A stretch of 64,000 bases of DNA from contig JAQUGR010000002.1 in assembly GCA_028683955.1 (NCBI GenBank), forward strand, positions 62,001 to 126,000, in the 5' to 3' direction. The stretch comes from Bacillota bacterium (GTDB lineage: Bacteria > Bacillota > TC1). The notes under the pieces are model-generated. The model worked only from the letters and a program-made list of their open reading frames with translations. It was not told the DNA's origin and did no database searches. Made by a program: the position numbers and the translations under genes. This document shows, piece by piece, positions 4,322 to 56,455 of the stretch (positions are counted from its first letter, which is position 1; each line of letters opens with the position of its first letter).

Positions 4322-6451
4322 ATGGATAAAAGAGAAATAGATCAAAGATGCAATAAAAGAAATCGTCCACGATTACACAGACACCATAATTTAAATAACA
4401 AGGGATATAGCTTTACAGAAAATATGCAAACTTCCCATCAATTATTTAATAATAGCGGTCTCAATAAAAAAGAAATTGATTTGATAGGAAATCCCAATAG
4501 TGGAAAGACTACAATCTTTAATATTTTAACAGGTTCAAATGCAAAAGTTGGCAATTGGCCTGGAGTTACTGTAGAAAAAAAAGAAGGGGCCCTAATAAAT
4601 AACCCTGAGTTTCAGATAGTTGATCTACCTGGTATATACAGTTTAAGCGCATATTCAGATGATGAAAAAGTTGCTAAAAACAGCCTATTAAAAAAACCAT
4701 CAATAGTTGTTGATATTTTAGATAGCTCAAACCTTAAGAGAAATCTTTATCTAACTATTCAATTGTTGGAAATGAATCAAAATGTTATCTTGGGCTTAAA
4801 TATTATGGATGTTGCTAAGAAAAAATACAAAGAGGTAAAATTAGATGTTTTATCAGAGTTGTTAAATGTGCCAGTTATTCCTTTAGTCGCTCAAAAGGGT
4901 GAAGGTGTATATGATTTAATTAATGCTATTGTTGACTATAAGGTTCATGAAACTGTAGAGTTTAGGCTACCCTATGGTGGAGAACTTGAAGAGCATATAA
5001 CTAATCTGGAAGCTTTATTAGCAGAAAGAAAAGTATCTATTTCAGGTTACACTTATAGAATGTTGGCCATTCAAGCACTTGAAGGTGATGAAATAGTCCG
5101 TTCATTGTTAATGCCTTATGGTTTAGACGATTTTATTCAAAAAGAAATAAATCATTTAAAAAGCATATTCAAAGATGACCTAGAAATGGTCTTTATAGAA
5201 AAGAGATATGGGTTTATTGAAGGTTTATTAAAAAAAGTAATTATAAGAAAAAAAACAATTGAAAACTCTCTTGGGACTTCAGATAAAGTAGATAAAATTG
5301 TTTTAAATCCTATTCTTGGCTTATTTATCTTTTTTGGAGTTATGTTTGCCTTATTCCAAATAACCTTCTTTTTTGGAGATTATATAAAAAGTTTTCTAGA
5401 GATGATTATTGGTGTCATTGGAACTTTTATTGCTGCATCTGTAGACAATAAAATTTTAGAATCTTTTTTGAATGATGGTGTATTAAGTGGTGTTGGAACG
5501 ATAATAACTTTTTTACCAAACTTAGTTTTACTGTTTTTACTCCTTACTTTTTTGGAAGATATTGGATATATGGCTAGAGCAGCATATTTGATGGATCGAT
5601 TTATGAGATTTTTCGGACTTCAAGGTAAGGCCTTTATTCCTCTAATTACTGGTTTTGGTTGTTCAGTACCAGCTGTAATGGCTACAAGAACACTTGAAAG
5701 CAAGGCTGATAGATTTACAACAATCATGATTGCTCCTTTAATATCATGTAGCGCTCGACTCCCTGTTTATATTTTGTTTATTTCAGCATTTTTCCCTAAT
5801 AATAAAGGTTCTATGTTGTTTTTAGTCTATATGTTAGGAATAATCTTGGCGGTAAGTATGGCTAAGATATTTAGAAGTACTTTCTTTAAATCTGAAGCAG
5901 CACCTTTTGTTTTAGAGCTTCCTCCATATCGTATCCCTACAGCCAAAGCAACTTTTATTCATACTTGGGATCGTGTTAAGGAATTTTTATCTAGGGCAAG
6001 CACTCTTATTTTGGCTATGGTTATTATTATTTGGGCTCTTTCCATCTTACCTTTAGGTGTTGTGTATGGATCTAGAGATAGTCTTATTGGTATTGTAGGC
6101 TCAACCATTGCCCCAATTCTTAAACCCGTTGGTTTTGGCACTTATGAAGCAGCTTCTGCTTTAATATCTGGTATAGTCGCAAAAGAGGTAGTTGTTTCTA
6201 CTCTTAGCACTATTTATGGTGCTCAAGGAGGTGGCTTGGTTCATGCATTAGCTACACAATGGACTCAGTTGCAAGGTTTTTCTTTTATGTTAATGAGTGC
6301 AATTTATGTACCTTGTCTTGCTACTCTAGCTACAATAAAACAAGAAACAAATAGTTGGAAATGGATGTTTTTTGTTATAGCCTATACTTCTGTGCTAGGT
6401 TATTTCGTTTCTTTTGTAGTGTACCAGGTAGGTTCGCTATTAGGATTTTAA
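4322..6451 (+). CDS. feoB: Ferrous iron transporter B
   Basis: GTP-gated Fe(II) importer of the inner membrane. The ATG at 4322 is chosen over an upstream TTG because GAAGGGA lies 6 bases before it; the product is 709 aa. The G domain has G1 GNPNSGKT (56-63), G3 DLPG (101-104) and G4 NIMD (160-163), followed by a helical insulation domain and a polytopic membrane domain containing the conserved GFGCSVPA and two Gate regions. The odd part is a roughly 50-residue N-terminal extension rich in Arg, His and Asn with one Cys (HRHH near 19-22) ahead of the G domain. It lies 11 bases after the DtxR-FeoA gene, in one operon. Confidence 0.96.
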   Translation: MDKREIDQRCNKRNRPRLHRHHNLNNKGYSFTENMQTSHQLFNNSGLNKKEIDLIGNPNSGKTTIFNILTGSNAKVGNWPGVTVEKKEGALINNPEFQIVDLPGIYSLSAYSDDEKVAKNSLLKKPSIVVDILDSSNLKRNLYLTIQLLEMNQNVILGLNIMDVAKKKYKEVKLDVLSELLNVPVIPLVAQKGEGVYDLINAIVDYKVHETVEFRLPYGGELEEHITNLEALLAERKVSISGYTYRMLAIQALEGDEIVRSLLMPYGLDDFIQKEINHLKSIFKDDLEMVFIEKRYGFIEGLLKKVIIRKKTIENSLGTSDKVDKIVLNPILGLFIFFGVMFALFQITFFFGDYIKSFLEMIIGVIGTFIAASVDNKILESFLNDGVLSGVGTIITFLPNLVLLFLLLTFLEDIGYMARAAYLMDRFMRFFGLQGKAFIPLITGFGCSVPAVMATRTLESKADRFTTIMIAPLISCSARLPVYILFISAFFPNNKGSMLFLVYMLGIILAVSMAKIFRSTFFKSEAAPFVLELPPYRIPTAKATFIHTWDRVKEFLSRASTLILAMVIIIWALSILPLGVVYGSRDSLIGIVGSTIAPILKPVGFGTYEAASALISGIVAKEVVVSTLSTIYGAQGGGLVHALATQWTQLQGFSFMLMSAIYVPCLATLATIKQETNSWKWMFFVIAYTSVLGYFVSFVVYQVGSLLGF

Positions 6452-8774: not shown

Positions 8775-9146
8775 ATGCTTAAAAAAGATCTACGTTTAAC
8801 AAAGAACAAAGAGTTTACCTACATTTATAGAAAAGGTTACAAAATAAAGGGCCGTTATTTTATCATTTATGCCATAAGAGGCAACAAAGAAATGAAAATC
8901 GGCTTTTCTCTTTCTAAAAAAGTAGGCAATGCTGTAATTAGAAATCTTTACAAAAGAAGATTACACGAAATATTTGGAGAATTTCTTCCCGTAATGAAAG
9001 TTAACAAATACGTTGTAGTAGCTAGTCCCTCAATTAATGAGGCAAACTACCAGGAACTACGGGAAGACATTATTACAACGTTGGAAAAAAGTGATTTTAT
9101 TGTTCTGAAGGAGGGTAACAGTGAATATAACCGATATACTAATTAA
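8775..9146 (+). CDS. rnpA: Ribonuclease P protein component
   Basis: Protein subunit of RNase P (123 aa), which supports 5' maturation of tRNAs. The core shows IGFSLSKKVGNAVIRNLYKRRLHEIF; the family's RNR box reads RNL here, an unusual third residue. It overlaps the GTG start of yidC by 26 bases. The yidD gene, usually between rnpA and yidC in Bacillota, is missing. Confidence 0.95.
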   Translation: MLKKDLRLTKNKEFTYIYRKGYKIKGRYFIIYAIRGNKEMKIGFSLSKKVGNAVIRNLYKRRLHEIFGEFLPVMKVNKYVVVASPSINEANYQELREDIITTLEKSDFIVLKEGNSEYNRYTN

Positions 9147-9783
9147 ACTACTTGAGTTTTATCATGATTTCTTTTTTGGCAGCTATGGTATAGCCATATT
9201 TATGGTAATACTAACTATTAAGTTAGTTCTATTTCCATTGACTCTATACAGCCAAAAATCAATATTAAAAACTCAAAAGATACAACCATTATTAAATGAA
9301 ATACGTGAAAAATACAAACACGATATGGATAAACAATCAAAGAAAATTACAGAACTATATGCAGAGCACAATCTGTCTATGTTTTCACCTTTGATGAGTC
9401 TAGTACCAATATTCTTGACTTGGCCGGTAATTATTGCAATCTTTAATTTATTAGGAAAGTATTTTAAAGATCTTGGAGCGGGTTTCCTTTGGATAACCGA
9501 TATCTCTCAAAAGGGTCATTTGGAAGTTGCCATACTAGTTGCAGTAATCCAAATTCTTTCTATGTATATAAACTCAAAAATGATGAATACAAACCAACCT
9601 AAATCAATGCTTTATGTAACAATGGGATTATCAGTGTTTATTGGTTATCTTGCTTATACATACCCCGTTGCCTTGGGAATATACTGGTTTTCATTTAGCT
9701 TAATTGGTATAGTAGAACAAATACTTATTAAAAAAGTATTTTTAAGAAAACATGTAGAGGAAATTAACTCTACCAAAAAATAA
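9121..9783 (+). CDS. yidC: Membrane protein insertase YidC/SpoIIIJ
   Basis: Inner-membrane insertase of the Oxa1/YidC family (220 aa). The GTG start at 9121 has GAAGGAGGG ahead of it. The protein has about five transmembrane segments and no lipoprotein signal, so it is shorter than B. subtilis SpoIIIJ. The conserved groove arginine just before the PL motif is a lysine here (TIKLVLFPL). It is coupled to rnpA by overlap and is followed by jag, its usual partner. Confidence 0.94.
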   Translation: MNITDILIKLLEFYHDFFFGSYGIAIFMVILTIKLVLFPLTLYSQKSILKTQKIQPLLNEIREKYKHDMDKQSKKITELYAEHNLSMFSPLMSLVPIFLTWPVIIAIFNLLGKYFKDLGAGFLWITDISQKGHLEVAILVAVIQILSMYINSKMMNTNQPKSMLYVTMGLSVFIGYLAYTYPVALGIYWFSFSLIGIVEQILIKKVFLRKHVEEINSTKK

Positions 9784-11913: not shown

Positions 11914-13809
11914 TTGAATTTCGTTGATGATTATAAAGTAATAGTTATAGGTGGAGGTCATAGTGGCACTGAAGCAGCTTATGCAAGTGCTAAAATGGGT
12001 ATGTCTACTTTACTATTAACAATCAGCCTTGATTCTATAGGTCTAATGCCTTGTAATCCATCTATTGGAGGACCAGCTAAAAGCCATTTAGTCTTTGAAA
12101 TTGATGCCTTAGGCGGCTTAATGGGTAAAGTTGCTGATAGAACCTCAATACAGAAAAAAATACTTAATAGAAGTAAAGGTCCGGCAGTTTATGCCTTAAG
12201 AGCTCAAATTAATAGATTTCTATATTCAAGGGAAATTATTAAAGAACTAGAAAATCTAGATAACCTTGATATTGTTCAAGGTGAAGCAAAAGATATATTA
12301 GTTAATGACAAGGGTGAGCTCATAGGAGTAAGCCTTGCTAACGGCTTAAATTATAGTGGTAAGAGTATAATACTAGCAACTGGCACCTATCTTTCCTCAA
12401 AAATTATAATAGGTGACATGGTAAAAGAATCAGGACCTAATGAACTAAGTAACAGTAAGTACTTAGCAAGTTCCTTACATAAACTTGGTATTAAAACCCA
12501 TTCCTTTAAAACAGGAACACCGCCTAGAATACATAAAGGAAGCCTGAATATAGATAAACTAGAAATACAACCAGGTGATGCACAAGACTATACTTTCAAC
12601 TTTGAAGAAATAAATGGTAGTCTACCACAGGTAGATTGTTATCTTACTCATACAACAGAGAAAACTAAAAAGGTTATAGAAGATAATATTGATAAGTCAC
12701 CATTATTTTCAGGGATTATAAAAGGGGTTGGGCCAAGGTATTGTCCATCAATAGAAGATAAAGTAATGCGTTTTCCTGAAAAATTAAGTCATCATTTATT
12801 TATTGAGCCTGAAGGACATGATGTAGAAGAAATTTATCTTCAAGGCTTTTCAACAAGCTTACCTGGAGATGTGCAAATAGAAATGGTACACTCTATAAAA
12901 GGTCTAGAGTCAGCCAAGGTAATGAAACTTGGCTATGCAATAGAGTATGAAGTTATTAATGCAACAGAACTTAAACTTACTTTAGAGTCTAAAAAGATAG
13001 CAAACCTATATTTTGCTGGACAGATTAATGGTACTTCTGGTTATGAAGAAGCAGCTGCCCAAGGTTTAATCGCTGGAATTAATGCGGTTTTGAAGTTAAA
13101 AGACCAAAAACCACTCATCTTAGATAGATCCAATGGTTATATTGGAGTATTAATTGATGATTTAGTAACTAAAGGAACAGAAGAACCATATAGAATGTTT
13201 ACTTCAAGAGCAGAATACCGATTATTACTTAGACAATCGAATGCAGATAGACGTTTAACAAAAATAGGGTATGATATAGGTTTAATAAACCAGGAACGTT
13301 ATGAAAATTTTCAAAAGAAGATAGAAACTATTGATAATGAAGTAATTAGATTGAAAAACCTGACTATTGATGCTGACAGGGATGAGGTTATACAGCTTAT
13401 AAATAACTCAAATGGTTCAGCCTTGGAACAAAACATAAAAGCAACTACCTTAATTAAAAGACCAGAGATAAGTTACTTTGATTTAATTAAAATATACCCT
13501 TCTAATCAACTTATAAGCCCAAGAGAAGGTGAAGAGGTGGAACTCTTAATAAAGTATGAAGGTTATATTAAAAAACAAATAGAACAAGTTGAAAATTATT
13601 CTAAAGGTGAGAAAAAATTAATTCCATCATGGCTTACCGATTATAGACTAGTAAAAGGTCTTACAGGTGAGGCAATAGAGAAGCTTAACACAGTTAAACC
13701 TTTATCTATAGGCCAAGCAAGCAGAATATCAGGTATTACACCTGCAGATATACAAGTACTACTAATTTATTTAGAACAAATAAAAAGACAGGAGAAAGAT
13801 AATGTTTAA
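11914..13809 (+). CDS. mnmG: tRNA uridine-5-carboxymethylaminomethyl modification enzyme MnmG (GidA)
   Basis: FAD-dependent partner of MnmE (631 aa). TTG at 11914 is chosen because AGGAGG lies at 11904-11909 and the protein then begins MNFVDDYKVIVIGGGHSGTE, with the Rossmann GGGHSG near residue 13. Other family marks are GPAVYALRAQ, FKTGTPPR and GTSGYEEAAAQG. It overlaps rsmG by 8 bases. Confidence 0.97.
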   Translation: MNFVDDYKVIVIGGGHSGTEAAYASAKMGMSTLLLTISLDSIGLMPCNPSIGGPAKSHLVFEIDALGGLMGKVADRTSIQKKILNRSKGPAVYALRAQINRFLYSREIIKELENLDNLDIVQGEAKDILVNDKGELIGVSLANGLNYSGKSIILATGTYLSSKIIIGDMVKESGPNELSNSKYLASSLHKLGIKTHSFKTGTPPRIHKGSLNIDKLEIQPGDAQDYTFNFEEINGSLPQVDCYLTHTTEKTKKVIEDNIDKSPLFSGIIKGVGPRYCPSIEDKVMRFPEKLSHHLFIEPEGHDVEEIYLQGFSTSLPGDVQIEMVHSIKGLESAKVMKLGYAIEYEVINATELKLTLESKKIANLYFAGQINGTSGYEEAAAQGLIAGINAVLKLKDQKPLILDRSNGYIGVLIDDLVTKGTEEPYRMFTSRAEYRLLLRQSNADRRLTKIGYDIGLINQERYENFQKKIETIDNEVIRLKNLTIDADRDEVIQLINNSNGSALEQNIKATTLIKRPEISYFDLIKIYPSNQLISPREGEEVELLIKYEGYIKKQIEQVENYSKGEKKLIPSWLTDYRLVKGLTGEAIEKLNTVKPLSIGQASRISGITPADIQVLLIYLEQIKRQEKDNV

Positions 13810-49655: not shown

Positions 49656-51119
49656 ATGGATACAGAATTAACTGAATTATTACAAATTAGAAGAGATAAG
49701 ATCGATGCTTTAAGAGAAAGAGGCATCGAGCCTTTTAGTGGTCGTTTTGAGAGGACTGATTTTTCATCTGATATTCAGGGTGATTTTGAAAGCTATGAAG
49801 GTAAGCCTGTTATTATAGCTGGTAGAATAATGGCTAAAAGAGAGCATGGTAAGACTGCTTTTGTTAATGTTGCTGATATGTATGGATCTATTCAAGTTTA
49901 TGTGAGAAAAGATAGACTTGGTGATGATGCTTTTGATAGTTTCATTGGTCTTTTTGATATTGGTGATATTGTTGGTGTTGAAGGTGAAGTTTTCAAGACT
50001 CAAAAGGGTGAGATTTCTATTAAGAGCTCTACTATTACTATGTTGACTAAGGGTCTTTTACCTCTGCCTGAGAAATATCATGGTTTGAAGGATGTTGAGT
50101 TAAGATATAGACAGAGATATGTTGATTTGATTATGAATCCTGAGGTTAAGGATACTTTTATAACTAGGAGTAAGATTATCAAGGAGATTAGAAATTATCT
50201 TGATAAAAAAGATTTCTTAGAGGTGGAAACACCTGTGCTTCATCCACTAGCTGGTGGAGCTTCTGCCAGGCCTTTTGTTACTCATCATAATACTTTGGAT
50301 ATGACTTTATATATGCGTATTGCTTTAGAGTTGCATTTGAAGAGATTGTTGGTTGGTGGTATTGAGAGGGTTTATGAAATTGGCAGAGTGTTTAGGAATG
50401 AGGGTATGTCTGTAAGGCATAATCCTGAGTTTACTTTATTGGAGCTTTATCAGGCTTATGGTGATTTGACTGATATGATGAGTATTGCTGAGAATATGAT
50501 TGCTGAGGTTGCGACTAAGGTTTTGGGTACTACTCAGGTTACTTATCAGGAAACTGAGATTGATTTTAAACCGCCTTGGAATAGGATTTCTATGGTTGAG
50601 GCTGTTAATAAATATTCTGGTGTTGATTTTACTAAACTGCAAACTGATGCTGAGGCTAGGGATGCTTGTAAGGGTAAGATTACTATTACTGGTAATGTAT
50701 GTAAGGGTGATTTGTTGAATGAGATGTTTGAGGCTTATGTTGAAGAGCATTTGATACAGCCTACTTTTGTTTATGATTATCCTATTGAGATTTCTCCTCT
50801 TGCTAAGAGGAAGTCTGATGATCCTGCCTTTACTTATCGTTATGAGGCTTTTGTTTTTGGTAGGGAGTTGATTAATGCTTTTAGTGAGCTTAATGATCCT
50901 ATTGACCAAAAGGAGAGGTTCTTGAAGCAAGTTGAGAAGAAGGAGTCTGGTGATGATGAGGCTCAGCCTTATGATGAGGATTTCATTACTGCATTAGAGT
51001 ATGGTATGCCTCCTGCTGGTGGTCTTGGTATTGGTATTGACAGGTTGGTTATGTTTTTGACTGATTCACCTTCTATCAGGGATGTTATTATTTATCCAAC
51101 TATGAGGGATAAGAAGTAG
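49656..51119 (+). CDS. lysS: Lysyl-tRNA synthetase, class II
   Basis: Class II synthetase (487 aa) with an N-terminal OB-fold anticodon domain and motifs 1-3: [36 protein letters not shown], and the C-terminal [14 protein letters not shown]. Coding-strand composition is extreme (1 C, 23 G, 21 T, 15 A in bases 50341-50400), with NNT and NNG codons dominant. A terminator follows. Confidence 0.97.
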
Positions 51120-51169
51120 GTTATTAAATATTTAGATAAATAGTATTAAATATTAATATTAGAATTGTA

Positions 51170-51194
51170 TGAGAGCTTAGGCTCTCATTTTTTT
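51170..51194 (+). terminator. Intrinsic terminator after lysS
   Basis: TGAGAGC (51170-51176) pairs with GCTCTCA (51181-51187) around TTAG and is followed by seven T. It marks the end of the long housekeeping block before the accessory cassette. Confidence 0.9.
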
Positions 51195-51335: not shown

Positions 51336-51740
51336 ATGAAAGCAAAGAAAATAATTAATAAATTAAGTGTCATTCTAGCTATTACTATAGTATCTGTTCT
51401 TATGACTACAGCGACTGTAAATGCGGCTGCTGGGAGTAGAATAGCGAAAGATAGTTTCCCTCAATATTCAATATTTGGATTTCTTGTTTATACTATGGGG
51501 GTAGAAGGAAATTACCACAGCAATGGAACGAAAATTGATACATATTCTACTACTTATGCAAGAACCAGTACTAATGGAACTTGGAGTGTTCACAATAAAA
51601 GTTCATCATGGACATACAAAGGAGTAGTATATGGAACATGTAGGGCATACGCTACTTTCAAGAATGGTCTTGACACAACCTGGGTAAGTTTATCATGGCA
51701 AACACAAGATGAAAGCATTAGTGCATATGCTTACAAGTAA
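51336..51740 (+). CDS. Secreted peptide-like protein of an ABC cassette, unknown family
   Basis: A 134-aa protein starting at ATG 51336 (AAAGGGGGTG ribosome site at 51321-51330). It has a classical signal peptide: basic start, hydrophobic core (about 9-27), and a likely cut after the Ala-rich NAAA near residue 30. The mature part of about 100 residues is rich in Ser, Thr, Tyr, Trp and Gly with a single Cys and repeated aromatic/Thr strands, suggesting a secreted beta structure. It is first in a cassette with two ABC permeases. A bacteriocin-like toxin, signal or substrate are possible; I cannot assign a family. Confidence 0.7.
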   Translation: MKAKKIINKLSVILAITIVSVLMTTATVNAAAGSRIAKDSFPQYSIFGFLVYTMGVEGNYHSNGTKIDTYSTTYARTSTNGTWSVHNKSSSWTYKGVVYGTCRAYATFKNGLDTTWVSLSWQTQDESISAYAYK

Positions 51741-51759
51741 AGGTTTATCAATTTCAAGA

Positions 51760-51807
51760 ATATACGCCCTTGTTTAAGCAAATTACAAGTGCGTATATAT
51801 TTTTATT
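51760..51807 (+). terminator. Hairpin between the secreted-protein gene and the ABC genes
   Basis: ATATACGC with CCTTGT (51760-51773) pairs with ACAAG and GCGTATAT (51785-51798), then a T-rich run follows. As an attenuator it would allow high expression of the secreted protein and lower readthrough into the transporter. Confidence 0.7.
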
Positions 51808-51828
51808 ATTTTGAAAGGATTATATATT

Positions 51829-52713
51829 ATGATAATTAATGCTCAAAATATTATTAAAAATTACAAGAATAAAGCTGTTCTAAATGGAATTAACTTCAAG
51901 GTAAATGAAGGTGAGATTCATGCTATTCTTGGTAAAAATGGAGCAGGAAAAAGTACATTTATTAAAGTTTCTTTAGGCTTGATATTCCCAACTTCAGGAG
52001 AAATTGCAGTTTATGGTGAAAAGCCTGGACATAAAAACACTAAAATTGGATATTTATCAGAGAATATAACTTTGTACCCTCATCTCACAGCTAAAGAAAA
52101 TTTAAAAGTGGCTGCCTACACTGCAGATGAGAAAATATCAGATTCTAGAATATCTGATATTTTAGAAAGAATGTCTTTAAATAATTTAGGTAATAAGAAA
52201 TCAATAGAATTCTCTTTAGGAATGAAAAGAAGATTGCAACTAGCCATGGCAACAATGATTAAAGAAGTTGATTTTCTTATTTTAGATGAACCTACAAACG
52301 GACTGGATATAAATGGTCTTATTTGGTTAAAAAGCTATCTCAAAGAACTTAATAAAAAAGGTGTATCAATCCTCCTTGCAAGTCATTCTATTTTGGATCT
52401 TCAAGAAAGCATTACAAATTATTCAATCTTTGAAAATGGAATTATTGCAAAGGAAGGAAAGTGGATCAATGATCAATCACAAGGATTCGAAATAAAAGTC
52501 GACAAAAACGATGAAATAAGACTTGTAAATATATTGAAACATATTCCAAAGCAGATAGTTAATTATGATAAAGCAAAGATAATTTTAAATACTGAAATGA
52601 ACTTTAAGGAAATTAACCAGCTTTTATTCAAAGAAAATATTATACCTGAAAACATAACAATTATTAAAAATTCATTAGAGAAGGTTTATCTTGAAACCAT
52701 TGGTGAATTATGA
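51829..52713 (+). CDS. ABC transporter ATP-binding protein (NatA/BcrA-like)
   Basis: A 294-aa single-domain ATPase. ATG 51829 is used (GAAAGGA 9 bases upstream) rather than an earlier TTG. Walker A is GKNGAGKS (35-42), the signature is SLGMKRRLQLA, Walker B is FLILDEPTNGLD, and the H-loop is SHS. A C-terminal extension of about 75 residues is typical of the drug/peptide-resistance (BcrA) and NatA groups. It energises the two permeases that follow. Confidence 0.92.
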   Translation: MIINAQNIIKNYKNKAVLNGINFKVNEGEIHAILGKNGAGKSTFIKVSLGLIFPTSGEIAVYGEKPGHKNTKIGYLSENITLYPHLTAKENLKVAAYTADEKISDSRISDILERMSLNNLGNKKSIEFSLGMKRRLQLAMATMIKEVDFLILDEPTNGLDINGLIWLKSYLKELNKKGVSILLASHSILDLQESITNYSIFENGIIAKEGKWINDQSQGFEIKVDKNDEIRLVNILKHIPKQIVNYDKAKIILNTEMNFKEINQLLFKENIIPENITIIKNSLEKVYLETIGEL

Positions 52714-53498
52714 TGTTGAATTATATTAGAGCTGAATGGATAAAGATTATTAAAACAAGATTTCTCTGGATTCTTTTAGGGATGTATACCTTAATATTTA
52801 TTTTATTGTTTTATCAATTTACTTTGAATGAAGGTGCTAATGTAATAGAACCTTTATTGAAGAACTCAATTAATCTATACTCCTTTTTTATAATTATGTA
52901 TTCAGCGTTTCTAAATATTATATTTGCTGTTACCTTAGGTAGTCATATAGCAGCTAATGATTATTCTTATAATACTATACAGACAAATATCCAGTTATCA
53001 GGAAGATATAGGCTTTTTATCTCAAAGCTTTTAGTAATGCTTATATTGGTTGTATTATTCGTATTTTTTATTGCATTAATTGGTATTTTATTAGGATTAA
53101 TACATGAACCAATTGTAAGTATGTTTTCATTATCTGACTTCCTAAAGAGGCTAGCTTTTGGGATTACATCTACATATCTGATGGGTTTATTTGCAATGAC
53201 TGTTGCAACAATTTTTAAAAGCACTTCAAGAAGTAATATTATTTGTATTATTTTATTTCTTGGACAAAGTTTATTACCATATGGCTCACATATGAAATAC
53301 CTACATTATTTAAATCCATATTTTTATGTTTCATATTTTGCCGAAGGATTATTTTCTAATTTAAAAGGACTATCAAATATTACTGTATCTACGATAAATA
53401 CTTTAAATTTTTCACAAAATATTATGCTTATTGTTGGTTACTGTTTAGTCTGTTTTGCTATACAATTCTTAATATTTAATAGAAGGGAGTATTCATGA
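52710..53498 (+). CDS. ABC-2 type permease, first
   Basis: A 262-aa membrane protein with about six transmembrane helices (near 18-36, 58-78, 98-125, 145-170, 175-195, 236-256) and an amphipathic N-terminus (MLNYIRAEWIKIIKTRFLWI), as in ABC-2 exporters of the BcrB/NatB kind. It overlaps the ATPase by four bases and the next gene by four, so translation is coupled. Confidence 0.85.
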   Translation: MMLNYIRAEWIKIIKTRFLWILLGMYTLIFILLFYQFTLNEGANVIEPLLKNSINLYSFFIIMYSAFLNIIFAVTLGSHIAANDYSYNTIQTNIQLSGRYRLFISKLLVMLILVVLFVFFIALIGILLGLIHEPIVSMFSLSDFLKRLAFGITSTYLMGLFAMTVATIFKSTSRSNIICIILFLGQSLLPYGSHMKYLHYLNPYFYVSYFAEGLFSNLKGLSNITVSTINTLNFSQNIMLIVGYCLVCFAIQFLIFNRREYS

Positions 53499-53929
53499 TG
53501 AAGATTAAATTGTTTATAGGATTAATAATATTTTTAGTTATGACAACTAGTGTTATATTGTTCTTTAATATTGTTAATGTAAATACAGGTAAAAGAGATA
53601 AATTTGCTTTAAATATAACTTATCGTGATGAAGAAAGAAAAATACCTATTGGTTTAAATATCATATATGAAATATCAAATAAAAAATTTGAAAGATTTGT
53701 AGTAATGACAGATGAAAATGGCAATCTTCCAATTGCTTATGAAGCAACTATTGAAAAGGGAGCACCTTTAATAAGAATTAATTTAAAAGGTAAGTTTGTT
53801 AAAGAAATTAAAATAATAGAAAAAGATAAAATAAATTTAAAACTTTTGCCTAATACAAGTTATACTTTGGAAATCGTAATTGATTATGGTATTGGAAATA
53901 TTAATCTAAGATGGATGGAGATGGCTTAA
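53495..53929 (+). CDS. Membrane-anchored outer-face accessory protein of the ABC cassette
   Basis: A 144-aa protein with one N-terminal transmembrane helix or uncleaved signal (about 4-26) and an outer domain of alternating strands that looks beta-rich (NIIYEISNKKF, FVVMTDENGNLP, YTLEIVIDYG). No family is recognised. Its place between the two permease genes suggests an immunity or substrate-contact subunit. It abuts the second permease by one base. Confidence 0.7.
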   Translation: MMKIKLFIGLIIFLVMTTSVILFFNIVNVNTGKRDKFALNITYRDEERKIPIGLNIIYEISNKKFERFVVMTDENGNLPIAYEATIEKGAPLIRINLKGKFVKEIKIIEKDKINLKLLPNTSYTLEIVIDYGIGNINLRWMEMA

Positions 53930-53930
53930 T

Positions 53931-54692
53931 ATGTTTGATAGCATAAAAGGGAATATTAAAGCTGATGCATTAATATTATTTAAAAGCAGTTTGATACGCT
54001 GGGCAGTAATTATTTGTATCTTAATAATTTCACTAGTTATTAATACCTCAAATAGTATATTTAGTGATAATTCTGAAATAGGTTATTATACAAATCAGTT
54101 ATTGATAACATCATCACAATTTAATATTATTTTTATAATATTAATAGGGTCATATATTGGAACATGTGACTTTAATTGGCAGACATATAGTTTTAGAGTT
54201 ATTAATTCAAGAAGAACTGTTGTCTGGATATCAAGAGTATTATTGATTTTTATTGTTTCAATTCTATTTATTCTATTAAATATCTTTATTGGTTCATTCT
54301 TTGATTTTCTTGGTGGTTCAATAGAGTTCTTTTCTATAAACTTAATATTTAAATACTTCGTAGTAATTATTGTAGTATTCATGTGGGGTATGTTAGCCTA
54401 TTTTATTGGATCTATTTCCAATAGCTTTGTTGTTGCTTCGACTTTTTCTCTTTGTTTTATTTTATTGGAAAGTTTTGCAGTGAGTTCCTTACCATTAAGT
54501 TTTTCAAGATTATTGCCATTATGGAATCAAAAAAGTTTATTGATTCATTTCTTTGATGTTCCTGAAGGTGCGGTAGCTATAGTTCAAATGAACTCTGGAT
54601 TTTATTTGATATCTTTATGTTATATTATATTATGTATTGTTCTATCATTAGTTTTATCCTATTTTTTAAATATAAAAGTGAAATATAAATAG
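53931..54692 (+). CDS. ABC-2 type permease, second
   Basis: A 253-aa membrane protein with about six helices, built like the first permease (KGNIKADALILFKSSLIRWAVIICILIISLVI at the start). Two different ABC-2 permeases with one ATPase imply a heterodimeric channel. It is last in the cassette; a strong terminator lies 90 bases on. Confidence 0.83.
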   Translation: MFDSIKGNIKADALILFKSSLIRWAVIICILIISLVINTSNSIFSDNSEIGYYTNQLLITSSQFNIIFIILIGSYIGTCDFNWQTYSFRVINSRRTVVWISRVLLIFIVSILFILLNIFIGSFFDFLGGSIEFFSINLIFKYFVVIIVVFMWGMLAYFIGSISNSFVVASTFSLCFILLESFAVSSLPLSFSRLLPLWNQKSLLIHFFDVPEGAVAIVQMNSGFYLISLCYIILCIVLSLVLSYFLNIKVKYK

Positions 54693-54782: not shown

Positions 54783-54827
54783 AATAGGGAAAGAAGCAAG
54801 ATAGATTGCTTTCTTTCCCTATTTTTT
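54783..54827 (+). terminator. Strong terminator between the ABC cassette and dnaX
   Basis: AATAGGGAAAGAAGCAA (54783-54799) pairs with its complement at 54806-54823 with one bulge and runs into TTTTTT. Confidence 0.92.
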
Positions 54828-54883: not shown

Positions 54884-56455
54884 ATGAGCTATTTAGCACT
54901 ATATAGAAAACACAGACCTATAAATTTTGCAGCCTTGGTAGGACAAGACCATGTAGTAAGAACACTAAAAAATGCACTAACTAAAAACATGGTAACCCAC
55001 GCATACCTGTTCTCGGGAGTAAGAGGAACAGGAAAAACAAGCATGGCAAAACTACTAGCCAAAGCACTAAACTGCCTTGATTTAGTAAATGGAGAACCTT
55101 GCAATAAATGCATGAACTGCCTAAAAATAAACGAAGGCAACTTCATGGACATTATAGAAATAGATGCAGCCTCAAACAGAGGAATTGATGAAATAAGAGA
55201 CCTAAGAGAAAAAATAAAATTCATGCCAGTAGAAGGCAAAATGAAAGTCTACATCATAGATGAAGTACACATGCTAACAGGAGAAGCTTTCAATGCACTC
55301 CTTAAAACACTAGAAGAACCACCTGGACATATAGTATTTATACTAGCCACAACAGAACCACACAAAATCCCCCTAACAATACTATCAAGATGTCAAAAAT
55401 TTGACTTTCATAAAATACCAAACGATATACTAATCGAAAGATTAAAATACATAGCAGAAGACTGTAATGGAAAAATAACAGAAGATGCACTAATACTAAT
55501 AGCCAAACTAGCAGGTGGTGGATTAAGAGACGCCATAAGCCTACTAGACCAGTGTCTAACCTCCTATGAAGAAGAAGTTACAGTAGAAGACGTAAGCCAA
55601 ATAGCCGGAATAGTAGAAGATGAAAAAATAGTTGAACTATTCCAACAATTAGCAGACAAAAACGTCTCACAAATAATGAGCCTTTACGAAGAACTGAAAA
55701 ATGGCGGCAAAAGCATCGGTCAACTTCTAAATGACATAATAGAAGGACTAAGAAATATACTAATCATAAAAACAGTACCAAACCCAGAACAATTTATAGT
55801 AGCAGGAACAGAGATGATTTCAGACCTAAAAGAAGTTGGAGATAGATTTACAAAAGATCAAATCTTAAACTGGATCTATAAACTAAGCGATGTAGAAAGT
55901 AGAATGAAGTATAGCATTCATCCAGATATACTACTAGAAGTAGAACTACTAAAAGGAAGCACTAGCAATATAGCAGAAGTGAATGAAGAAAAACCAGTTG
56001 AAAATAAAATAGAACAAAAAGTAGAAAATAAAGTAATTAAAAAAACAAATAAAATAGATAAAGAATTACCAACAATCAAAAAAGAAGAAGTGGTAGTTGA
56101 AGAAGAACATAAGGGCGTTAAACTAGATGGTGAAAAACTCTGGCACAGGTTCATAATTGTCCTAGGAGAAAAGAACAAAAGCGTAGAAGCCTACTATAAG
56201 GGCGCAGTTGGTCACGTAATCATGGATAACATCCTAACTATATATTTTGACGAAAAAAAATCCGGCTTTCATAAATCAAGAGCTGAATTACCAGAAAACA
56301 TTGAATTAGCAGAAAACTTATTAAGATATCTAGCAGGAAGAAAAATAAAATTAGTCATAGAATTTTCAGAAGAGCTAGAAAAAAACCAAGATAATAATCC
56401 AGATGATAAAATTGCAGAAATATTTGGAGATAATATAAAATATATTAATGAATAG
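54884..56455 (+). CDS. dnaX: DNA polymerase III subunits gamma/tau
   Basis: Clamp-loader ATPase (523 aa). Walker A GVRGTGKT (45-52), zinc cysteines 64, 73, 76, 79, Walker B IIDEVHML and SRC sensor LSRCQKFDF are present; residues ~360-420 are a Lys/Glu-rich linker and a tau-like C-terminal domain follows. AGAGGAGG is ahead of the ATG. The usual ybaB-recR partners are missing; glmU follows. Coding composition is reversed from lysS: A 25, C 18, G 5, T 12 in bases 55321-55380, nearly all NNA and NNC codons. Confidence 0.96.
   Translation: MSYLALYRKHRPINFAALVGQDHVVRTLKNALTKNMVTHAYLFSGVRGTGKTSMAKLLAKALNCLDLVNGEPCNKCMNCLKINEGNFMDIIEIDAASNRGIDEIRDLREKIKFMPVEGKMKVYIIDEVHMLTGEAFNALLKTLEEPPGHIVFILATTEPHKIPLTILSRCQKFDFHKIPNDILIERLKYIAEDCNGKITEDALILIAKLAGGGLRDAISLLDQCLTSYEEEVTVEDVSQIAGIVEDEKIVELFQQLADKNVSQIMSLYEELKNGGKSIGQLLNDIIEGLRNILIIKTVPNPEQFIVAGTEMISDLKEVGDRFTKDQILNWIYKLSDVESRMKYSIHPDILLEVELLKGSTSNIAEVNEEKPVENKIEQKVENKVIKKTNKIDKELPTIKKEEVVVEEEHKGVKLDGEKLWHRFIIVLGEKNKSVEAYYKGAVGHVIMDNILTIYFDEKKSGFHKSRAELPENIELAENLLRYLAGRKIKLVIEFSEELEKNQDNNPDDKIAEIFGDNIKYINE

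Follow-up and report, generated by a model that had tools for sequence, protein, structure and literature searches.

Organization of the cassette

The window, i.e., the whole stretch of 64,000 nucleotides that was analyzed, contains five closely spaced open reading frames, all on the + strand, which fill the interval between lysS (ending at 51119) and dnaX (starting at 54884). The features of the region are the following:

51169..51188, + strand: intrinsic terminator 3′ of lysS, the upstream boundary of the cassette
51336..51740, + strand: ORF1, 134 amino acids; secreted protein with a predicted Sec signal, candidate bacteriocin
51754..51815, + strand: hairpin in the ORF1-ATPase intergenic region, core stem at about 51761-51798
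51829..52713, + strand: ABC ATPase, LanF/DrrA-like, with Glu at the Q-loop position
52710..53498, + strand: ABC-2 permease 1, with PF12730 above cutoff and a weak match to TIGR03733 (MutG)
53495..53929, + strand: anchored protein, one N-terminal transmembrane segment followed by about 116 amino acids of predicted beta structure
53931..54692, + strand: permease 2, ABC-2 type, with a Pfam match in its homologue only
about 54783..54824, + strand: hairpin with a U tract 5′ of dnaX, part of the chromosomal backbone

The ATPase and permease 1 genes, as well as the permease 1 and anchored protein genes, overlap by 4 nt, while a 1-nt gap separates the latter from permease 2. The GC content of the cassette is 0.24-0.31, compared to 0.31-0.37 in the flanks, and none of the ORFs in the lysS-dnaX interval codes for a modification enzyme, a leader peptidase or a regulator. 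The initial annotation had described a unit of five overlapping or touching genes at 51336-54692, coding in this order for a secreted protein, an ATPase, an ABC-2 permease, a membrane-anchored beta-rich protein and a second permease, with a composition unlike that of the neighbours, without modification, protease or regulatory genes and with a terminator after lysS; all of this is borne out, the beta structure of the anchored protein being a low-confidence prediction. A second terminator, before dnaX, had been proposed to delimit the unit on the other side. A hairpin with a U tract is indeed located there (z -6.1), but it is also present in three relatives of the same genus that have no intact cassette (L044, L045 and L048), and it thus belongs to the chromosomal backbone and not to the cassette. 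Within the genus its stem has changed in sequence, while the structure is kept whatever occupies the lysS-dnaX interval.

The secreted protein

By inspection and hydropathy, ORF1 starts with a predicted signal peptide, composed of a basic start (KAKK), a hydrophobic stretch at residues 10-28 and an A-x-A-type site, with cleavage expected near VNA-AA. The mature part, encoded by about 51426-51737, comprises about 104 amino acids with a pI of 9.0, including 10 Tyr, 4 Trp, 4 Phe, 14 Thr, 14 Ser and a single Cys. The protein had been considered a member of no recognised family, with a mature part of around 100 residues, and profile searches agree: no Pfam or NCBIfam model matched, nor was there a match in the PDB with the single sequence, so that no structural family unrelated to antagonism emerged either. 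The single-sequence model is all-beta, with a pLDDT of 41, a confidence too low for fold comparison. What the Pfam, NCBIfam and PDB scans returned (OrgC, E 0.02-0.1) was far below cutoff and was dismissed as chance.

The ABC pump and the anchored protein

One ATPase co-encoded with two separate ABC-2 permeases, the arrangement typical of LanFEG transporters, is present in the cassette. Pfam cutoffs are reached only by the ATPase (PF00005) and by permease 1 (PF12730). The best NCBIfam model for the ATPase is TIGR03740 (lantibiotic protection, galliderm_ABC), with 173.9 bits against a cutoff of 309.75; the same model ranks first for the homologue from the distant order described below. All NCBIfam scores of the ATPase are under cutoff, with the DrrA/GldA-type models placed just below TIGR03740 and TIGR03608 ranking far down. 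In the Q-loop of LanF proteins Glu replaces Gln, and the same occurs in DrrA/GldA-type ATPases; the invariant E78 of the cassette ATPase, in a YLSEN/YLPEN context, is therefore not discriminating. Permease 1 shows a weak match to TIGR03733, the model for the MutG lantibiotic immunity permease. For permease 2 of the window, neither Pfam nor NCBIfam gave a match, PF12730 being found in its homologue. A simple scan detected six hydrophobic segments in permease 2 and at least four in permease 1.

The anchored protein of the window has no Pfam or NCBIfam match and, as a single sequence, no PDB match, and its single-sequence model is all-beta with low confidence (pLDDT 48). Three of its relatives match PF11589 (DUF3244; best E 2e-6), a beta-structured domain. 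The protein is proposed to be an outer-face immunity subunit.

Distribution and state of the cassette

None of the other nine genomes sampled from the class of the window bacterium contains ORF1, and it is missing from nearly all 399 genomes of the phylum. A clear homologue (36% identity, E 2e-16) is found in G184, a genome of another class, with the other genes of the cassette downstream in unchanged order. A search of the order to which G184 belongs yielded ORF1 homologues in G399, G402 and G404, and the profile of the anchored protein added G401. Among about 420 genomes, the cassette was found in the window bacterium and in only one distant group; judging from context, including the taxon structure and a neighbouring CBM-rich GH5-like cellulase, the latter probably corresponds to Caldicellulosiruptor and a sister genus. 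Weak ORF1 matches in G177, G195, G210, G263, G308, G330 and G397 (E 2e-4 to 0.007) were treated as chance; at the G210 locus (L006) the secreted protein has no adjoining ABC transporter. The match of the anchored protein profile in G183 (E 9e-4) belongs to an operon for ATP synthase and was likewise discarded as chance, and two scans of genome contigs returned no relative.

Identity of ORF1 between the window and the distant class is 34-36%. For the anchored protein, identity across the two lineages falls to only about 20%, with position, length, anchor and profile score in agreement. The gene for the anchored protein occurs in six of the about 420 genomes and is adjoined by ORF1 in five of them and by the last ~9 codons of ORF1 in the sixth, while no genome of this set contains ORF1 without it. 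Consistent occurrence of the ABC genes without the secreted protein, which would have refuted the reading of the initial annotation, is therefore not observed; the search for the same five genes elsewhere recovered them in the same order, with the hairpin, in the distant class. The single copies differ in their state:

Window: open reading frames for all five genes
G402: loss of frame inside the signal peptide of ORF1; all four transporter genes open
G401: only the last ~9 codons of ORF1 left; all four transporter genes open
G399: signal peptide of ORF1 missing; in-frame stop in permease 2
G404: reading frames of ORF1 and of the ATPase broken, ORF1 signal peptide missing and most of permease 1 gone; only the anchored protein and permease 2 still open
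G184: open ORF1; an IS inserted in permease 1 and a frameshift in permease 2

Since the five relatives belong to one order, these losses may not all be independent. The dN/dS values between the lineages are 0.18-0.20 for mature ORF1, indicating that it was under purifying selection until recently, and 0.14-0.30 for the transporter genes; the order, reading frame and low dN/dS that are kept in distant genomes argue that the genes of the cassette are real.

In the window, the hairpin that separates ORF1 from the ATPase gene is stronger than those of shuffled sequences (z -3.0). Hairpins differing in sequence are found at the same position in four relatives (z -4.3 to -4.6). It had been described as an attenuating hairpin: the structure is real and recurrent, while its role as an attenuator is one of two that may be considered, the other being 3′ stabilisation. 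Its placement would permit expression of the structural gene above that of the immunity genes.

The lysS-dnaX interval as an exchange site

Within the genus of the window bacterium, the interval between lysS and dnaX has a variable content. It is empty (116 nt) in G002, it contains a rhodanese-like gene in G004 and, in G001, a membrane protein, a matrixin-like secreted protease and a lipoprotein; in G003 it is occupied by a secreted protein of 131 residues, an ATPase-FtsX ABC protein of 704 amino acids and another protease/lipoprotein pair. The secreted matrixin-like metalloprotease (HELGHxxGLSH) with its partner lipoprotein is thus located at this site in two species (L045 for G001 and L048 for G003). 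At L048:6064-8622, on the - strand, the orphan secreted protein is followed by the ABC transporter, which is a single chain; the hairpin corresponding to that between ORF1 and the ATPase is absent from this locus.

The G003 secreted gene and ORF1 share 87.5% identity in their upstream DNA, and in G003 dnaX is preceded by a decayed remnant of the anchored protein gene (35% identity, E 4e-6, two stops). These two findings point to a cassette that was probably already present in the common ancestor of the window lineage and G003 and that was exchanged in the latter. For the incoming transporter, the best NCBIfam model is TIGR03608 (L_ocin_972_ABC; bacteriocin export, lactococcin 972 type), below cutoff.

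ORF1 and the G003 protein can be aligned end to end with 26% identity, with a BLASTP E of 0.003 in one comparison and shuffle p values for the mature parts of 0.0005 (global) and 0.027 (local). No similarity was found between the distant ORF1 homologue and the G003 protein (shuffle p 0.21-0.68), and HHalign gave a probability of 0.7%; thus, homology of the two secreted proteins is only suggested. The G003 protein has no other relative among the 399 genomes. Plasmid sequences contained no match to ORF1, its G184 homologue, permease 1, the anchored protein, permease 2 or the G003 protein; phages had no match to ORF1, viral contigs had none either, and nothing was found in Rfam.

In G003 (L048) lysS is split in two overlapping frames; the 3′ third of the gene is 98% identical to the window protein and the 5′ part 88%; this is possibly an assembly error or the trace of recombination beside the exchange site.

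Comparison with known systems

One of the closest likenesses is with the LanFEG and LanI proteins of lantibiotic producers (NisFEG/NisI, SpaFEG/SpaI), where an ATPase, two ABC-2 permeases and an outer-face accessory protein are encoded beside a secreted product, and where NisI and NisFEG act jointly in immunity (PMC8538875). The best NCBIfam models of the cassette, galliderm_ABC and, weakly, MutG, belong to this group. Unlike these systems, however, the cassette lacks genes for LanB/LanC/LanM, LanP and LanKR, its product is an unmodified protein of 104 residues with a Sec signal, its accessory protein has a transmembrane anchor and not a lipobox, and all its scores are below the curated cutoffs. 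Indeed, lantibiotic clusters are defined by a modification enzyme and a short precursor with a leader peptide, and neither is encoded by the ORFs between lysS and dnaX. As expected of Sec-dependent unmodified bacteriocins, an N-terminal Sec signal, predicted from hydropathy and inspection, is present here and modification genes are absent.

Among the latter, the lactococcin 972 family (Lcn972, streptococcin B) is similar in that a Sec-exported, unmodified, Cys-poor small protein is followed by predicted immunity/transport genes (PMC11796350), and the ABC protein found at the same chromosomal site in G003 ranks L_ocin_972_ABC first; the window transporter, in contrast, is of the ABC-2 type with two separate permeases. 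Kinship of ORF1 itself with lactococcin 972 was rejected at the sequence level, as no Pfam or NCBIfam model matched and the pairwise shuffle p was 0.42 (sequence checked against 2LGN). The family is further characterised by a beta-sandwich fold and by the inhibition of septum formation through lipid II binding. The roles of the immunity/transport genes accompanying lactococcin 972-type proteins have been verified in no locus (PMC11796350). AS-48EFGH and circularin CirGHI also provide a secondary ABC transporter with extra subunits that serves self-protection and not primary export (PMC8538875), whereas the cassette has no circular bacteriocin precursor and no DUF95 (SpoIIM-type) protein. The cassette probably works like known bacteriocin/immunity pairs; it is filed in none of them, since their defining scores or features are not reached.

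Proposed function and alternatives

Genes, gene order, co-occurrence, hairpin, purifying selection, loss pattern and exchange site mark a cassette that is real, conserved and undescribed. By analogy with the systems above, the reading that we favour, with moderate confidence, is that ORF1 is a Sec-exported unmodified bacteriocin, to which the LanFEG-like ABC transporter and the outer-face protein give immunity; Sec export, killing activity, target, immunity and the role of the hairpin are all points that we infer. ORF1 would be made with a Sec signal peptide and leave the cell by the general pathway, as suggested by the signal itself and by the absence of a peptidase-type ABC transporter or leader. 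The released form would be a basic protein of around 104 residues that carries no modification and probably consists for the most part of beta strands, and it may act on competing bacteria at the cell surface. In the producer, the ATPase and the two ABC-2 permeases would form a LanFEG-like complex removing ORF1 from the membrane or from its target, assisted by the membrane-anchored outer-face beta domain in the part of a LanI-type immunity protein, while the hairpin may keep ORF1 in excess over the pump.

Self-protection is the best-fitting role for the transporter: LanFEG/LanI offers one analogy, and another is the scb locus of pneumococci, from which the functional bacteriocin has been lost in a quarter of the strains (PMC11796350). 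G401 and G402, with ORF1 deleted or out of frame and the pump genes open, would be behaving as immunity keepers do. The opposite arrangement, with the transporter as a dedicated exporter of ORF1 or of another substrate and the anchored protein as export adaptor, would account for the tight linkage and the fixed gene order; it is very unlikely, since ORF1 has its own Sec signal, the transporter lacks a peptidase domain and all four of its genes are open where ORF1 has been lost. Thus, the earlier proposal that the pump protects the producer rather than exporting the protein is sustained by G401 and G402 and by the first rank of TIGR03740, but it meets its main counter-evidence in G184, where an open ORF1 beside broken permeases suggests that a complete pump is not required for survival. 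This can be reconciled with the bacteriocin reading if ORF1 is silent or inactive in G184, or if the anchored protein is sufficient or partly protective. The decay in G399 and G404 also counts against this reading, the damage not being confined to the toxin side, as do the lack of any bacteriocin model matching ORF1 and the below-cutoff NCBIfam scores of the ATPase.

The persistence of the ABC genes without ORF1 in G401 and G402, and of ORF1 without an intact pump in G184, would also be expected if ORF1 were secreted as a signal or decoy that does no harm and the transporter sensed or cleared it, or an antibiotic from outside, like flux-sensing pumps; however, no histidine kinase, regulator or receptor gene is found in the cassette or conserved beside it, and an aromatic-rich protein of 104 residues would be unusual as a signal, which makes such a system unlikely. 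Similarly improbable is a role in surface maintenance, with ORF1 as a wall or surface protein, the transporter handling envelope stress or a lipid, and no antagonism involved. Many ABC-2 exporters of the DrrA/GldA kind, whose models score just below TIGR03740, serve envelope upkeep, and the anchored domain is distantly DUF3244-like; yet the cassette is very unevenly distributed, different secreted proteins occupy its exchange site, and ORF1 was repeatedly lost while the pump stayed, which are rather the features of conflict genes.

A broader and more doubtful proposal can be added tentatively to the bacteriocin reading: ORF1 might be the founding member of a bacteriocin class so far unrecognised, Sec-exported and beta-structured, with its own four-subunit ABC immunity complex, the modules being swapped at fixed sites (lysS-dnaX here and, in the distant order, promoter-bearing repeats after an mmpL-like gene), and the 131-residue protein of G003 might be a fast-diverged relative with a different type of ABC transporter. 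If the bacteriocin reading is right, the cassette would add a new family of secreted proteins, missed by searches that rely on known precursor models and modification enzymes, together with a compact pump and outer-face protein whose role is directly testable. A second, independent pairing of a Sec-exported bacteriocin and an ABC transporter, with natural toxin-minus, pump-plus genomes, would be a useful test case.

Neighbouring modules in the distant order

Repeats of about 420 bp occur in G399 (L017:744-1173, 5218-5651, 9109-9545 and 12565-12895), as well as in L016 and L034. Each combines the last part of an mmpL-like gene with a terminator-like hairpin and a promoter-like site (TTGACA-N17-TAAAAT), and they separate successive modules, among them the ORF1 cassette and a set composed of an MFS transporter, a PqqD-like protein and two radical-SAM/SPASM proteins; the array looks like an arrangement that gives each module its own promoter. 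The latter set is located at L017:1460-5127, directly upstream of the ORF1 cassette, and may represent a RiPP cluster, although no precursor is evident.
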